Assembly: GCF_963664965.1 (NCBI RefSeq)
Contig: NZ_OY761823.1
Coordinates: 692,001 to 756,000, forward strand
Direction of reading: 5' to 3'
Length of the DNA: 64,000 nt
Source: an uncultured Pseudodesulfovibrio sp.
Lineage (GTDB): Bacteria; Desulfobacterota; Desulfovibrionia; Desulfovibrionales; Desulfovibrionaceae
In this document: one piece after another, positions 14,144 to 32,582 of the stretch
Numbering within the stretch: the first letter of the stretch is position 1
How the letters are laid out: every line of letters begins with the position of its first letter
Translations under genes and position numbers: made by a program
Notes under the pieces: model-generated
Databases searched by the model: none
Told to the model about the DNA's origin: nothing
Seen by the model: the letters and a program-made list of their open reading frames with translations, nothing else

Positions 14144-14770
14144 TCAGCGTATTGCTTCGAGGATTGCGACGGTCAGGTCGGCAGTACCCAGATAGACGGG
14201 GTGCGGACTGACAAGTGCGAGGTTTCGGCGAAAATGGCGCAGCCACGGGAGCATGGTGCAGCGGGCGAATTTCCGGGCCTGGGATTCGATTTCCGGGTCG
14301 GATTCGGACCAGCCCGTTGCAAGGCGGTGGTAGAGATATTCAAGCTCTATGGAAAGATGGTCGGGCGGTTCGCTGGAGTTCAGTGGGAGATCAAGTCCGG
14401 CGTTGATGAGGCGGGAACGCATCGAAACCGCGGATTCATTCCTGATGCGGGGGCTTTCTTCAAGCTGGCAGGATTCTTGGAGAGGGGCGACCGCGGGAGT
14501 GCCGATATCCGTGAAAAGGCGTTCATATTCGGTCTGGAGCAGCGCGGGCTGATCCGGTGTGTCGCTGGAAAGGGCGGCCTGTATTTTTTTCAGGATGGCG
14601 GTGATGACAGGGGATTGCCTGTTCGAAGCTGCAACAAGTTGCGGCAGGCCGACGGAGATGATGCCTTCCCATCCGTCGCGGTCCGGGCCCCGAAAAACGG
14701 CGGCCGCGAATTCGATGGTGCTGAGGAGGAAGATTCGTTCGCTGGTATCGGAAATGGCGAATTCGGACAT
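14144..14770 (-). CDS. TorD/DmsD-like cytoplasmic chaperone (orphan)
   Basis: The 208-residue all-helical protein has TorD-family features: LLQTEYERLFTDIGTPAVAPLQESC in the middle, then PDHLSIELEYLYHRLA and MLPWLRHF. TorD-type chaperones bind Tat signal peptides and apo-forms of molybdoenzymes until the cofactor is inserted. No molybdoenzyme adjoins it; it lies between copA and a divergent CsoR-type regulator. The start ATG 14770 has GGAG 11 bp upstream; the longer reading from 15010 runs across the divergent gene and is not credible. Its client could be elsewhere on the chromosome. The family call is from motif reading and moderately sure. Confidence 0.7.
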   Translation of the reverse strand: MSEFAISDTSERIFLLSTIEFAAAVFRGPDRDGWEGIISVGLPQLVAASNRQSPVITAILKKIQAALSSDTPDQPALLQTEYERLFTDIGTPAVAPLQESCQLEESPRIRNESAVSMRSRLINAGLDLPLNSSEPPDHLSIELEYLYHRLATGWSESDPEIESQARKFARCTMLPWLRHFRRNLALVSPHPVYLGTADLTVAILEAIR

Positions 14771-14825
14771 GAGCGTATTCTCCGGTTCTCCACAGTTGGC
14801 GATAGTTCGGGAGAATAAGGGAAAA

Positions 14826-14855
14826 TTGACGACTCGGCAACGATGAAGATATAGA
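14826..14855 (+). promoter_or_regulatory. Candidate sigma-70 promoter of the CsoR-family gene
   Basis: TTGACG (14826-14831) and TATAGA (14850-14855) are spaced 18 bp. The transcript would begin near 14862, leaving a ~24-base leader before the ATG at 14886. Confidence 0.45.
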
Positions 14856-14885
14856 TAACGGATGAAAAAGGAAAAAGGGAACGAC

Positions 14886-15176
14886 ATGGCACTCGACGAG
14901 CAGGAACAGCAGCAGCTGAAAAAAAAGGTGCTTTCGCGCATGAAGCGAATCGAGGGGCAGGTGCGGGGCATCCAACGCATGATCGAGGAAGGCAAGGAGT
15001 GCGAGGACATCCTTGTGCAGGTGCGGGCGGTCCGTTCCGCGCTTCAGTCGGCCAGCAAGGTCATCCTGCAACGGTACATGCTGCGCTGTCACGCCGAAGC
15101 GCTTGAAGGCGGGGACGATCAGCAGGAATCGCTGGAAAAGATGCTCAAGGTCATGACGGGATTTATCGACGGATAA
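14886..15176 (+). CDS. CsoR/DUF156-family repressor lacking the metal-site histidine
   Basis: This 96-residue helical repressor has the DUF156 core KVLSRMKRIEGQVRGIQRMI. In CsoR the copper ligands are Cys, His and Cys at relative positions 0, +25 and +29. Here Cys39 and Cys68 fit exactly, but +25 is Tyr64. Losing His while keeping both Cys resembles the persulfide-sensing CstR branch more than copper-sensing CsoR. It is divergent from the TorD-like gene and ~0.9 kb from copA, so either copper or sulfur-species sensing is possible. I chose ATG 14886 because an A/G-rich stretch with AAAGGGAAC precedes it; ATG 14862 would add eight residues but has no ribosome site. A terminator follows. Confidence 0.82.
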   Translation: MALDEQEQQQLKKKVLSRMKRIEGQVRGIQRMIEEGKECEDILVQVRAVRSALQSASKVILQRYMLRCHAEALEGGDDQQESLEKMLKVMTGFIDG

Positions 15177-19750: not shown

Positions 19751-21115
19751 TCAGCCGCAGACAGCCCGTGCGAAGAATCGGCATGTCCGGTCCTGCCACC
19801 AGACAAATCCCAGCTCCGCATCAGCGTACCACGCAGCGGTAAAGGCCTTGGTGTCGCAGCTCCAGAGACGGGCCTTGCGCGGGTCGAACACCGGCTGCTG
19901 GCAGAAATCCCCCGGTTCGGTCCTGCCCGTGAACAGCGTGGTCAGTTCATCTATGGTCGGCAGTCGCCAGTCCGTGCGTCCGCCGTATCGGTTCCGGTTG
20001 AGTCGGGCCACATGGGCGTGCGCCCGGTCCCATGTCAACGGATACCGTGATCCGAACTTTTCCCATGTCAGGCCGTTGGCGTCATACGACACGGTGCCGT
20101 TGCCGGTGTCCGTGAACGTGCCTGCCCCGTATTCCGTGGGCCGCCACAATTCGTCCAGCCCGAAGGCTTTTCGCGCTTTTTTGGTGTCTGTCTTGATGGG
20201 AGCGGAGCGTGGTGACCAGTCCGCGTCATGCCGGACCGGTTCGAAAAGCAGGTCCGCGCCGGAGCATTCCGCGTCCTTTTGGTCATTCCATGCGGTCTCC
20301 AGTTCATCGAGTGCGGCGGCCATTTTCATGGCGTCGTCAAAGCGTTGCGCGGGATCGCGTGAAAGCGCCTTGTGGAACAGCTCGTCCCATTCGCAGCCGA
20401 GGTCCGGGTGCTTCTCGCATATGGAGGGAGCATCGGTCAGATCTTCCGGCGGCAGGGTGCCGGTCAGCATGCGGTACAGCGTGACGCCCACGGAAAAGAT
20501 ATCTGACCGGGCATCCGCTGATTCCGGGTCTGCCTCCTGTTCCGGAGCGGTGTAATACGGTGACCCGACGACCATGCCCTTGTGGCCCTGCGTGCGTTCG
20601 CCGCGCAGTTTGCTCAGGCCGAAATCGATGAGCTTGACCATGCCCGGTCCGCCTTCGTCCTCGGCCAGCATCACGTTGAAGGGTTTCACGTCCCGGTGCA
20701 CGATTCCTTCGTAATGCAGCCGGTCCAGCCCGAACAGCATCTCCCGTGCAATATGTATCGAGGTCTCGACTCCCAGCCTGCGGGACGGTTTTTCCACTTC
20801 ATAGGTCTCACCCATGAGCACGCCGAGGTTGCCGCAGAAATACTCCATGGTGAAATGGACGGGCACGCCGTCTGCGCCGTCATGAACGTCCAGAATCGAC
20901 GCGATATTGCCATGGCTGATGCTCGCCATCATAGAGGCTTCCTTGAGAAACATCTCGGTCAGTTTCTCGGTGCCCATGAGGTCTTCCATGATCTCGGCGG
21001 GACGCAGCACCTTCAGCGCCACGATCCGTTCGGTCACCGGCATCTCAGCCTTGTATACCGCTCCCATGCCGCCCCGGCCGAGCAGGCCGCGTATCGTATA
21101 ACGTCCGATTTTCAT
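19751..21115 (-). CDS. Ser/Thr protein kinase with C-terminal DUF1566 domain
   Basis: The 454-residue protein starts with a Hanks-type kinase domain. It has the P-loop LLGRGGMGAVYKAE, the ATP-anchoring Lys35 in ALKVL, HRDVKPFNVM, DFGLSKL and GSPYYTAPEQ. After a linker (~residue 300) comes a DUF1566-type region with TGNGTVSYDANGLTWE and TDWRLPTIDELTTLF. DUF1566 is common in exported or surface proteins of unknown function. I see no transmembrane segment between the two, so the whole protein is probably cytoplasmic. ATG 21115 matches the natural kinase start; the longer reading adds eight residues. It lies downstream of the response regulator in the same direction, separated by a hairpin. Confidence 0.85.
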   Translation of the reverse strand: MKIGRYTIRGLLGRGGMGAVYKAEMPVTERIVALKVLRPAEIMEDLMGTEKLTEMFLKEASMMASISHGNIASILDVHDGADGVPVHFTMEYFCGNLGVLMGETYEVEKPSRRLGVETSIHIAREMLFGLDRLHYEGIVHRDVKPFNVMLAEDEGGPGMVKLIDFGLSKLRGERTQGHKGMVVGSPYYTAPEQEADPESADARSDIFSVGVTLYRMLTGTLPPEDLTDAPSICEKHPDLGCEWDELFHKALSRDPAQRFDDAMKMAAALDELETAWNDQKDAECSGADLLFEPVRHDADWSPRSAPIKTDTKKARKAFGLDELWRPTEYGAGTFTDTGNGTVSYDANGLTWEKFGSRYPLTWDRAHAHVARLNRNRYGGRTDWRLPTIDELTTLFTGRTEPGDFCQQPVFDPRKARLWSCDTKAFTAAWYADAELGFVWWQDRTCRFFARAVCG

Positions 21116-21177
21116 GTGATGGTGATACCCCAAAGCCAATGGTTTTGGAATGGGGGAAAGTCTTGAGGGAAGCGCGA

Positions 21178-29283: not shown

Positions 29284-29505
29284 ATGTCGAAGAAAATCAA
29301 TGTAATATGCCCTTATTGCGAGGCTTCGGAAGAGCATCCCGCTCCCGCAGATTATGCCCCCAGATATCTGACCTGCGGAACATGCGGCAAAAGGTTCATC
29401 ATGGAGCCGACCGCCTCCGGACATGACGTATATCGTGACGGAGAAGCCCCCTGCTGCAGCGATCCCGACTGCAAGGCCATCGAGATGGGGGCCGGGGACG
29501 ACTAG
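29284..29505 (+). CDS. Small cysteine-rich zinc-ribbon-like protein
   Basis: The 73-residue protein has two CxxC pairs, ICPYC at residues 9-13 and CGTCGK, forming a probable zinc ribbon or rubredoxin-like knuckle. A C-terminal cluster CCSDPDC could bind a further metal. There is no signal peptide. The ATG at 29284 is preceded by AGGAG with good spacing. It is the first gene after the FNR-type box and lies 74 bp before the TorD-molybdoenzyme fusion, with which it should be cotranscribed. A role in maturation of or electron transfer to that enzyme is plausible but unproven. Confidence 0.75.
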   Translation: MSKKINVICPYCEASEEHPAPADYAPRYLTCGTCGKRFIMEPTASGHDVYRDGEAPCCSDPDCKAIEMGAGDD

Positions 29506-29579
29506 GCCTGAGCTGAATGAATCCCCGGCACTGTTCTCCGGGCAAGAGTCATCAACACAACTTGCAAGGGAGGTATGCC

Positions 29580-32354
29580 GTGTCTAAGGAACATGACAAG
29601 CAGCATTCTGGCATGTGCCGTTTTCTTTCGGTGCTGCTCCGAGACGAGCCGACACAGCAGATCGTCGCAGCCATGGCTGATCCGGCATTCGCCGATTCTT
29701 TCGGAACTGCCTTGAAAGAGGCCGGAAATGCGAACTGGATTCAGACCGCGACACTTCTTGAAGAGGCCTTTGCCGACACAGGGCCGGAAAACGTGTACCG
29801 CCAGCTGCGCTTCGAATATGCCGACATGTTTCTCGGGGTCGGCGTGGACCCCGTGTTCCCCTATGAGAGCGTGCACCTGACCGGACTGCCGCTGGTGCGC
29901 CAGAAGAATGTCTTTGAACTCCGGGCCCTCTACCGCGAGGCAGGCGTGCGTCCCAATCCGCAGTACGCGGACCTCGAGGAACACATCGCCGTTGAACTGG
30001 AATTCCTTGCCCACTGCCTTGAAAACGAGCTCGATGCCGGGGCGGAAGGAATCTTGGGACGGCTGCAGGAGTGGGGACCAAAGTTCTTCGACCACCTGTA
30101 CCAGCGGGCGGAGTCGCCCTTTTACCGCGCCGCGGCGAAGCTCGGACTGGGATACCTCGCTCTGGCGGACGAAGGCGCTTCCCTTCCCGGGGCGCTTGCC
30201 GATTCGCTCGCCATGCTTCCCTTGGGGGACGGCCTGACGACCTTGGCCGGGGGCGCGACCCCTCCGCTTCCCGACACGGCGATTCCCACCCATTGCTACA
30301 CATGCGGCGCATTGTGCGGCATGACCGCCAAGCTTTCCGACGGCGTCCTGACAGGAACCGTGGGATTGCCCGGCGACCCCAAGGGTGCAGGCAAGCTCTG
30401 TCCAAAGGGCGGCTCGGCTCCCAAACACGTCTATTCGGCATATCGGCTCAAGGCCCCGCTGGTAAAGGAAGACGGACGGTTCCGGAAAGCCGGCTGGGAC
30501 GAGGCCCTTGACCGCATGGCTGACGGCATCAGGAGCATTCCCGAAGGAAAGCTCGCGTACTTCCGGGGCAACGACTTCTGCAACTGGATTCATGAGGCCC
30601 TGTTCGGCGCGCTGGGGTGTCCCAAAGGAACCCACCGGACCATGTGCGACAACTCCAACCGCATGTGGAATGAACACACGCAGAACGACAAGCGGCCTTG
30701 GATCAATTACGAGGGAAGCGACTATATCCTTCATTTCGGCATGAACGAACTGGCCACCAGCTACGGCCAGCGAAAGACCGCCGGTTTGAAGAACGCCCTC
30801 AAGAACGGCGCCAAGCTCGTCGTATTCGACCCACGCAAGAGTGAAACCGCGGCCAAGGCTTCGGAATGGATACCTCTCAAGCCCGCCACCGACGGTGCCG
30901 TGGCCATGGCCATGGCTTGGGTCATCGTGACCGAGAACCTCTACGACAGGACGTTCGTCGCCAAGTGGACCGAAGGCTTTGACCGGTTCAAGGCGCGTCT
31001 CCTCGGCGAGGAGGACGGCGTCGCCCGTACGCCGGAATGGGCGGAGGCGATCAGCGACGTGCCTGCCGAGACTATCGCCCGCATCGCCCGCGAATTCGCC
31101 GGGGCCAAGGCCAAGGGAGCGATTTCGTGGACCGGACTGGCCCAGAACCCGAACGGGCACTGGAGCACCGGGGCGGTTCAGTCCCTGAACACCCTGTGCG
31201 GCACCCATGACGCGCCCGGTGGACCGGGGCTGATCTTCAAGCGCAAGCTTTCGAGCGCATGGGGTGAAGGTCAGGCCAAGCCTGAAGCCAAATCCGCGCC
31301 TAAGGTGGACAACTTCGGCCTGTGGAGCGGCTGGTCGCCGGCCCGACTTCAAGCCAATGTGGAGGAAGGCAAGATCGAAGGCATGGTCATGTACTGGGGA
31401 GACCCCGCACTGACGGCGGGCAACTCCGAAGCTGAGACCAAGGGCATCGAGGCCATGCGCTTTGCCGGAGGCATTGAGGCCTTCATGTGCGACAGCGCCC
31501 TGCTTTTCGACGTGCTGCTTCCCGACGCCACATGGCTGGAGCAGGCGCAGGTCAAGCAGGACTGGCTCTATGATGCCTTTATCGGCTACTTCGCCGAGGT
31601 CGTGCCGCCCATGTACGACAGCAAGCCCATCTGGGAAATCACCCGGCTGCTCGCCGGGAAGCTGGGGCTGGGCGAATTCTTCCCTTGGGACAATCTGGAC
31701 GACGCCTTCCGCAACCAGCTTCGCGGCACAGGCGTCGAACTGGACGAACTCAAGGAACAGGGATTCGTCATCACCGACCCCGCGGAATATCGCAAGTACG
31801 AGAAGTGGGGAGGCTGCAATCCTCCGGAAGGCTATGGCTCCTCGGGCAAGAGCCGAAGCGGCAAGTTCTGCTTCGTCAACCCGGTGAGCGATGAAAAGGG
31901 CCTCGACCCCATGCCCGATTACAAGGCGCCTGACCCGGAATTCGCGCCGGACGAAGAGTATCCCTTCGTGTTCGGAAACTTCCGCTTCTTCCAGCATGAG
32001 CACTGCTCGACCTTCAACAACTACCAGCTGATGAAGCTCAAGCCGACCAACCCGCTGTGGATGAACGAAGACGACGCCGCGCGGCTGGGACTGGTAGAGG
32101 GCGACACGGTCCGCCTCATCTCGCCGTGGGGCAGCTGCCGGGCGAAGCTGCATCCGACGCCGGACATCAGCCACGGCGTGCTCGGAGCCGCGGGCGGGTA
32201 TGGACACAAGCGCGGACTGGAGGCCGATCCCAAGTATCCCGACATGGGCGGAGTGAACATCCCCGGCGCGCTGATGCCGCCGAACGTGACGGAGCCTACC
32301 GGGGGTACGCCGCTCCTGAAATTCATCAAGTGCAAAATTGAAAAGGCGTCGTAA
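29580..32354 (+). CDS. TorD-like chaperone fused to a molybdopterin oxidoreductase
   Basis: The 924-residue protein has two parts. Residues ~10-220 are a TorD-type chaperone domain (RQLRFEYADMFLGVGVDPVFPYESV, then DLEEHIAVELEFLAHCLENEL). From ~236 it is a DMSO-reductase-family enzyme with an N-terminal [4Fe-4S] motif C239-x2-C242-x3-C246-x27-C274. RTMCDNSNR supplies Cys356 as the probable Mo ligand, and a C-terminal cofactor-binding domain has PTNPLWMNEDDAARLGLVEGDTVRL. There is no Tat signal, so it should stay in the cytoplasm. A Cys ligand with this FeS motif resembles the thiosulfate/polysulfide/tetrathionate reductase group, but the substrate is not readable. No FeS subunit or membrane anchor follows. 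GTG 29580 is chosen over ATG 29517 because GGGAGG precedes it. Confidence 0.88.
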   Translation: MSKEHDKQHSGMCRFLSVLLRDEPTQQIVAAMADPAFADSFGTALKEAGNANWIQTATLLEEAFADTGPENVYRQLRFEYADMFLGVGVDPVFPYESVHLTGLPLVRQKNVFELRALYREAGVRPNPQYADLEEHIAVELEFLAHCLENELDAGAEGILGRLQEWGPKFFDHLYQRAESPFYRAAAKLGLGYLALADEGASLPGALADSLAMLPLGDGLTTLAGGATPPLPDTAIPTHCYTCGALCGMTAKLSDGVLTGTVGLPGDPKGAGKLCPKGGSAPKHVYSAYRLKAPLVKEDGRFRKAGWDEALDRMADGIRSIPEGKLAYFRGNDFCNWIHEALFGALGCPKGTHRTMCDNSNRMWNEHTQNDKRPWINYEGSDYILHFGMNELATSYGQRKTAGLKNALKNGAKLVVFDPRKSETAAKASEWIPLKPATDGAVAMAMAWVIVTENLYDRTFVAKWTEGFDRFKARLLGEEDGVARTPEWAEAISDVPAETIARIAREFAGAKAKGAISWTGLAQNPNGHWSTGAVQSLNTLCGTHDAPGGPGLIFKRKLSSAWGEGQAKPEAKSAPKVDNFGLWSGWSPARLQANVEEGKIEGMVMYWGDPALTAGNSEAETKGIEAMRFAGGIEAFMCDSALLFDVLLPDATWLEQAQVKQDWLYDAFIGYFAEVVPPMYDSKPIWEITRLLAGKLGLGEFFPWDNLDDAFRNQLRGTGVELDELKEQGFVITDPAEYRKYEKWGGCNPPEGYGSSGKSRSGKFCFVNPVSDEKGLDPMPDYKAPDPEFAPDEEYPFVFGNFRFFQHEHCSTFNNYQLMKLKPTNPLWMNEDDAARLGLVEGDTVRLISPWGSCRAKLHPTPDISHGVLGAAGGYGHKRGLEADPKYPDMGGVNIPGALMPPNVTEPTGGTPLLKFIKCKIEKAS

Positions 32355-32365
32355 GACACCCTCCT

Positions 32366-32415
32366 CGGGAAGCGGGGCCTTGTCGATGGCGTGCGACCAC
32401 GGCCCCGGCTTCCCG
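32366..32415 (+). terminator. Long stem-loop after the molybdoenzyme
   Basis: CGGGAAGCGGGGCC (32366-32379) pairs with GGCCCCGGCTTCCCG (32401-32415) with one bulged G and a 21-base loop. No T-run follows, so it may block exonucleases or act with Rho rather than as a simple terminator. Confidence 0.45.
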
Positions 32416-32582
32416 GTCCGGCAGGGCTTGCAGGCACCGGCAGGCCGCTGACAGGACCAATACATGTTCACTCGTTCCGGCCTGCCGATCGGGATTGAAA
32501 AATCCCCATTACGCGAGTCCGGGAGGGGGGTGAACAGCCTTTTGGGACGTCACGTCCGAAACAGGCGGACCGCCTTCTCCCC

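Follow-up and report, generated by a model that had tools for sequence, protein, structure and literature searches.

TorD-type chaperones are described as holding the apo-form of a molybdoenzyme, aiding insertion of its cofactor and shielding the twin-arginine translocation (Tat) peptide of enzymes that are exported (PMC10609526; this and the other papers are cited for the portions consulted). The same text gives NarG as the only enzyme for which the second site bound by a NarJ-type chaperone has been identified, and poses as a question how the chaperone permits insertion of the iron-sulfur (FeS) centre and the cofactor (PMC10609526). Here we describe a gene, at 29580..32354 (+) of a 64,000-nucleotide stretch of DNA from an uncultured Pseudodesulfovibrio sp. 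(contig NZ_OY761823.1, positions 692,001 to 756,000; the whole stretch is called the window below), that encodes a TorD-type domain and a complete molybdoenzyme in a single chain.

Among the literature matches listed, the nearest published fusion is mycobacterial NarX, a "fused nitrate reductase" whose fused domains are similar to NarGHI subunits and whose function is unclear (PMC7759655). A molybdopterin enzyme and a TorD/DmsD chaperone also occur together in the MOLY cluster (MolyA-MolyB-MolyC) of sulfur disproportionators, proposed for Desulfobacterota (PMC12998232). The words "fused" and "fusion" are absent from the consulted text of a survey that covered the NarJ subfamily in 2015 (PMC4464133), and, judged by titles and the beginnings of abstracts, none of the open-access matches listed deals with the fusion of a TorD domain to an entire molybdoenzyme. 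Domain databases may well list this architecture already.

Results

A TorD-type domain and a complete molybdoenzyme in one frame

Translation from GTG 29580 to 32354 gives 924 amino acids in one frame with zero internal stops. A probable ribosome-binding site, GGGAGG (29568..29573, +), lies six bases ahead of the GTG, and both frame and site are as a preliminary description of this DNA had read them. An alternative in-frame ATG upstream, at 29517, would extend the protein to 945 amino acids; the majority of aligned homologues start close to GTG 29580. A scan for a promoter and terminator of the gene found nothing useful. Considered for foreign composition, the gene has a GC content of 0.62 against 0.57 for the window, inside the 0.56-0.63 spanned by eight other open reading frames (ORFs) there. 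The opposite strand carries a frame longer than the gene itself (989 amino acids, 29502-32471, -), which has no Pfam match and is probably a GC-rich shadow frame.

A domain search of the whole protein returned, in order and all above curated cut-offs, PF02613 (the Nitrate_red_del/TorD family; residues 57-167, whole-protein E 3.5e-19), the Fe4S4 domain PF04879 (residues 234-286; 30279..30437, +), the molybdopterin oxidoreductase domain PF00384 (residues 289-693; 30444..31658, +) and the molybdopterin dinucleotide-binding domain PF01568 (residues 805-913; 31992..32318, +). TorD homology in the N-terminal part with a complete molybdoenzyme behind it is what the preliminary description had proposed. 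The last three domains, with the ligand residue at its canonical position, place the enzyme part in the dimethyl sulfoxide (DMSO) reductase family, whose members carry Mo or W on bis-pyranopterin guanine dinucleotide (bisPGD). The TorD-type domain occupies residues 1 to ~196 (29580..30167, +), and its assignment draws on PF02613, solved TorD and DmsD structures, conservation and the ratio of nonsynonymous to synonymous substitution rates (dN/dS). Searched with a profile built from ten fused TorD domains, solved TorD (1n1c) matched at 2.1e-25 over profile positions 4-202 and DmsD (3u41) at 5.1e-14. Homology to the TorD/NarJ family therefore spans the whole domain, but the domain is not a separate, dissociable protein, since it shares its frame with the enzyme. 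The earlier reading had extended it to about residue 220; it ends near 200, where a poorly conserved linker begins (residues ~197-237; 30168..30290, +). Counted from residue 196 to 237, this span is 42 amino acids in the window copy and 39-56 (median 54) across 41 copies.

Conserved predicted cofactor ligands and a distinct active-site motif

Conservation was assessed in an alignment of 41 fused copies, which excludes contig-edge copies and those of four genomes taken up below (G924, G153, G814 and G900). All five cysteines singled out in the preliminary description, the predicted [4Fe-4S] ligands Cys239, Cys242, Cys246 and Cys274 together with Cys356, are invariant in 41/41 copies. So are ten TorD motif residues (Y80, A81, F84, L85, P91, P94, Y95, S97, W165 and Y182) and, around the predicted metal ligand, H352, R353, M355, C356, D357, N358, R361 and E365; K371-W374 (K-R-P-W) is invariant in 16 aligned copies. 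The active-site segment (residues 351-374, T-H-R-x-M-Cys356-D-N...R361...E365...K371-R-P-W374; 30630..30701, +) carries a family ligand motif, H-R-x-M-Cys-D-N-x-x-R-x-x-x-E ... K-R-P-W, that is found in full in none of 49 unfused relatives and none of seven reference or own-genome enzymes. Two unfused relatives, L147 and L150, have its CD and RP.

Cys356 (30645-30647, +), the predicted Mo or W ligand, aligns with the cysteine of PhsA and PsrA that is known to ligate their metal. The nearest solved enzyme, found with a profile of 16 fusions, is a thiosulfate/polysulfide reductase subunit (2vpw, 2.6e-93), and the nearest NCBIfam model is that of PhsA (NF012032). Against its cut-off of 694 bits the window copy scores 235 bits and the L081 and L079 fusions 299.5 and 290.6 bits. 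By these scores, the lack of a convincing Tat signal and the lack of recognised B and C subunits, we reject membership in PhsA.

Both parts of the chain are under purifying selection. Among the 14 closest of 820 pairs, dN/dS is 0.055-0.21 for the TorD part and 0.028-0.095 for the enzyme part, figures to be read with the facts that these pairs share members and are not independent and that several have dS above 1; by its low ratios, the TorD part is maintained. Over all 820 pairs the TorD and enzyme identities co-vary (r 0.79), and none of 2000 permutations gave as high a value.

Distribution and history of the fusion

The other 148 sampled genomes of the window's own family gave no match above 34% identity and none reaching the TorD part, so that a fusion limited to its own genome is true of the family sample (149 genomes, own copy only); it is refuted at class and phylum level. 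The fusion occurs in 7 of 348 genomes of the window's class and in 11 of 395 of the phylum sample (own genome included in both, and G153 in the class with only a partial copy), and many genomes of the phylum hold full-length fusions at ~45-63% identity. It was further found in 34 of 192 genomes of the class of G488 and in 15 of 85 of the class of G683. In the former, 30 of the 34 matches start by query residue 15, three are truncated by a contig edge (G774, G846, G788) and one (G900) is split over three frames with its TorD part present. In the latter, 12 of 17 matches start by residue 14, two start at a contig edge (G946, G921), one is full-length at locus level (G925, L139) and two belong to a single broken copy in G924. 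Across the class and phylum samples, with the matches from the classes of G488 and G683 read in part, we met no member that was both intact and unfused.

Beyond these samples, 299 genomes of a second phylum gave only unfused matches of at most 36% identity at E 1e-70, with no fusion, and 198 genomes of a third phylum gave no match at all at that threshold, an empty answer that shows little. No match in 225 plasmid records spans 80% of the query, and the 20 matches listed start at residue 233 or later. A contig scan relying on short exact peptides returned three distant enzymes.

In a 68-row tree the 12 sampled fusions form a single clade with support 1.0. Their nearest neighbours are L147 and L150, unfused enzymes from the second phylum (0.9). 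Each has a ferredoxin-like gene adjoining, and the stretch read around it gave no match to TorD. One fusion event would be the simplest history. A division of the fusions into clades I and II was defined by enzyme-part identity and has moderate support (95/60 and 94/70), in a tree in which at least 11 of the 34 unfused rows are wrong-strand ORFs. One genome, G943, holds two fusion copies, one per clade (L130 and L115), with ~59% and 50% identity to that of the window.

Export signals and partner subunits

The window copy has no Tat-like pair of arginines in its first 45 residues or its linker, and none of the 41 aligned copies has a convincing Tat signal. An arginine pair does fall within the first 45 residues as called in three of them. 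That of L058 belongs to a long extension at the N terminus that probably precedes the true start, and those of L077 and L078 fall inside the first TorD helix; two others, L074 and L131, have a pair inside the linker. By comparison, an RRx[FLIM] motif occurs within 90 residues in 33 of the 49 unfused relatives. The want of a convincing Tat signal makes the fusion probably cytoplasmic, the location that the preliminary description had deduced from the same absence.

That description had also noted that no FeS or membrane subunit follows the gene, and a wider look agrees. No FeS subunit or molybdoenzyme membrane subunit was recognised among the flanking ORFs scanned around the window copy, the one place where a membrane subunit was looked for. 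A CxxCxxCxxxC protein within three same-strand genes was not called in 39 of the 41 loci, some of whose contigs end sooner.

Gene neighbourhoods

Upstream of the fusion, the window holds genes for a radical SAM protein, an amidase and a metallophosphoesterase, an ORF without a Pfam match and a small zinc-ribbon-like ORF. Downstream, two + strand ORFs that lack a Pfam match are followed by opposite-strand genes for a solute-binding protein and a cyclase. These genes look unrelated to the fusion. The cysteine-rich zinc-ribbon-like ORF (29284..29505, +; 73 amino acids from ATG) ends 74 bases before it and has a sub-threshold match to the YnfU family (20.2 bits against 36); its functional tie to the fusion is uncertain. 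It had no match in the loci compared, apart from copies of its own gene, and a conserved partner for it was not found. Elsewhere in the window, 19751-21139 (-) encodes a 462-residue chain that joins a protein kinase domain to an Lcl C-terminal domain (PF07603).

Many relatives have signalling genes beside the fusion. Genes were called there by a simple script as frames of at least 70 amino acids, and some contigs end within six genes. Of 21 clade II loci, 13 have a single-domain response regulator directly upstream and 14 a GAF-GAF-PAS-HisKA protein immediately after the fusion; a histidine kinase and a TauE/SafE transporter were each called within six genes in 13. Of the 19 clade I loci besides the window, five have TauE within that distance, four the regulator and one the GAF protein. 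The GAF-GAF-PAS-HisKA protein (L122, 9861-11519, and orthologues), a kinase remnant, ends in HisKA with no ATPase domain found by Pfam on the L081 and L079 copies. In one class sample, 84 of 192 genomes have its gene. Split by the fusion, these are 25 of the 34 genomes that carry it and 59 of the 158 that do not (Fisher p 1e-4, uncorrected for relatedness), and this presence in fusion-less genomes rules out the signalling genes as exclusive partners of the fusion.

Nine loci with the GAF gene and no fusion were compared. Five have the GAF gene immediately after the regulator (L166, L168, L169, L170, L171); in L167 an ORF called between kinase and GAF gene lies on the opposite strand, and the GAF gene of L163-L165 is divergent from the other genes. 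An unfused molybdoenzyme of ~705 residues stands on the TauE side in four of the nine (L163, L164, L168, L169), that of L164 partly outside the stretch. A related gene group lies in the fusion's own genome, 2.3 Mb away (L172 2-11366; C1:3033001-3044365). Its order is a PPDK-like protein, a response regulator (72% identical to the fusion-family regulator), a histidine kinase, two opposite-strand ORFs, TauE/SafE and a ferredoxin; no GAF gene was called in this group. It includes a divergent, unfused PhsA-like enzyme of 696 residues without a Tat signal, 48-49% identical to the 705-residue enzymes. The signalling genes and TauE thus recurrently adjoin a Tat-less PhsA-like enzyme, fused or unfused.

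Molybdoenzymes and TorD-family proteins of the same genome

The genome holds apparently seven molybdopterin-domain genes (eight matches, two of them in one long frame). Four of the six besides the fusion are QrcB (905.6 bits against a cut-off of 440) or contain TGA, and one of the TGA-containing genes matched formate dehydrogenase-N. Only two TorD-family matches were found, the fusion and an unfused protein of 288 amino acids at 14144-15010 (-) of the window (PF02613 6.9e-16; TorD model 47.6 bits against a cut-off of 132). The gene of the latter adjoins one for a GTPase with a KH domain, with no molybdoenzyme among the neighbouring ORFs scanned.

Discussion

We think it likely that the product is a soluble Mo/W-bisPGD oxidoreductase of the cytoplasm, that it belongs to the DMSO-reductase family, and that it has one [4Fe-4S] cluster, a Cys-ligated metal and a TorD-type chaperone tethered at its N terminus. 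In outline this keeps the preliminary interpretation of one chain with no Tat signal and no flanking subunits, the end of the TorD part being moved to about residue 200. The fusion, the complete predicted cofactor-binding residues, the purifying selection on both parts, the conservation across the family and the lack of a convincing Tat signal can be read from the sequences, and a cytoplasmic location with maturation in cis is what we infer from them. Most likely the TorD domain would fold first on leaving the ribosome, hold the apo-enzyme part open while the FeS cluster and bisPGD cofactor enter, and then stay on its linker rather than leave. With no Tat peptide to guard, we propose, the proofreading role has been lost and the cofactor-insertion role alone kept.

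The recurrent TauE and signalling neighbours suggest a small, possibly sulfur, anion as the most likely substrate. A small-anion substrate (a sulfur oxyanion or polysulfide being possible), transport by TauE/SafE and a free soluble electron carrier are speculative, and selenate or arsenate is not specially favoured. TauE has been proposed as a sulfite exporter in Cupriavidus necator, as quoted in the consulted part of PMC3949148. We would give little weight, for now, to the more ambitious picture in which the fusion is the first example of a class of self-maturing cytoplasmic molybdoenzymes with a substrate of its own, recognisable by the invariant HRxMCDN...R...E...KRPW motif. In that picture the chaperone would stay attached for good, damage or an exchange of metal could be answered by reopening and reloading the metal site, two-component genes would tune synthesis, and TauE/SafE would transport the substrate or product.

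Several observations weigh against a chaperone-tethered enzyme of this kind. Divergence is faster in the TorD part, whose identity to the window copy is 29-40% in 15 others against 52-71% for the enzyme. No electron partner was identified for the fusion. None of the signalling and TauE genes stands beside the window copy, and this, with the GAF gene in 59 of 158 fusion-less genomes, leaves the functional link to TauE circumstantial. A single-sequence AlphaFold model of the fusion has a predicted local distance difference test score of 34, and docking of TorD on the enzyme is not visible in it. There are also defective copies. Only residues 258-333 and residues 575-924 are left in that of G153 (L062), where the preceding 2.2 kb of contig give no TorD match; it is a deletion or misassembly. 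Those of G924 (L140) and G900 (L174) are frame-split, and that of G814 (L088) has an internal TGA. We regard all four as decaying genes or assembly errors.

Such broken or TGA-bearing copies, and the fact that TorD-type chaperones are usually separate genes, might suggest that the fused frame is an artefact of assembly or sequencing that joins two adjacent genes. The same frame is, however, present in independent assemblies of dozens of genomes, with examples on multi-megabase contigs (L044, L046), which makes such an artefact extremely improbable. A chance joining or a frameshift is excluded by the fused homologues that match both domains in many other genomes. The TorD domain might instead serve other molybdoenzymes of the cell in trans, also or mainly, as the count of apparently seven molybdopterin-domain genes to two TorD-family matches could imply. 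QrcB and TGA-containing molybdopterin enzymes generally use other maturation factors, which takes four of the other six genes out of that count, and every intact copy read has both parts in one chain, co-diverging as action in cis predicts. We therefore consider a role in trans very unlikely.

A further alternative is that the TorD domain is now structural or regulatory, for example a platform for the adjacent response regulator or GAF sensor in clade II. Most clade II loci do have flanking signalling genes, the fused TorD is the faster-changing of the two parts, and position 132 is Leu in 40 of 41 copies where aligned TorD and DmsD have proline. Yet the ten TorD motif residues are invariant in all 41 copies, among them those of clade I, most of which lack signalling neighbours, and the domain is under purifying selection and matches solved TorD over nearly its whole length. 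We judge this explanation unlikely, if less so than a role in trans, and prefer to see the domain as a chaperone for its own enzyme.

If the domain is such a chaperone, the protein offers a natural, one-to-one tethered chaperone-enzyme pair, which removes the problem of a transient complex and provides a single protein for crystals or imaging of apo- and holo-forms. It could let biochemists see how TorD-type helpers hold an enzyme and, having no Tat signal to guard, it separates the two roles of the chaperone. A distinct motif at the active site, together with TauE and signalling genes that recur nearby, would mark a family of probably cytoplasmic oxidoreductases.

The fusion resembles several known systems and differs from each. 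It shares its signalling and TauE gene group with the unfused PhsA-like enzymes beside TauE/SafE (L172, L163, L164, L168, L169), which start at the FeS motif, have no Tat signal and have Cys at the ligand position in L163, L168, L169 and L172/L006. Those enzymes differ in having no TorD domain and 25-27% identity to the fusion, and a ferredoxin gene is next to them or nearby, as seen for L168, L169 and L172. PhsA and PsrA likewise have an FeS domain and Cys at the ligand position, but the fusion is ~27% identical to PhsA and far under its cut-off, has no Tat signal and a different invariant motif at the metal ligand, and no B or C subunit gene was recognised beside it. NarX, one part of which is NarJ-like, is also a nitrate-reductase relative built of fused parts, whereas the present protein has an entire TorD domain ahead of an entire enzyme. 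In the MOLY cluster the chaperone is named as a component apart from the enzyme, which is likely extracellular according to the portion consulted (PMC12998232). With the TorD, DmsD and NarJ chaperones (the redox enzyme maturation proteins, PF02613) the fusion domain shares homology over nearly the full length of TorD and the motif residues; unlike them, it is permanently joined to its client and has no Tat peptide to guard.

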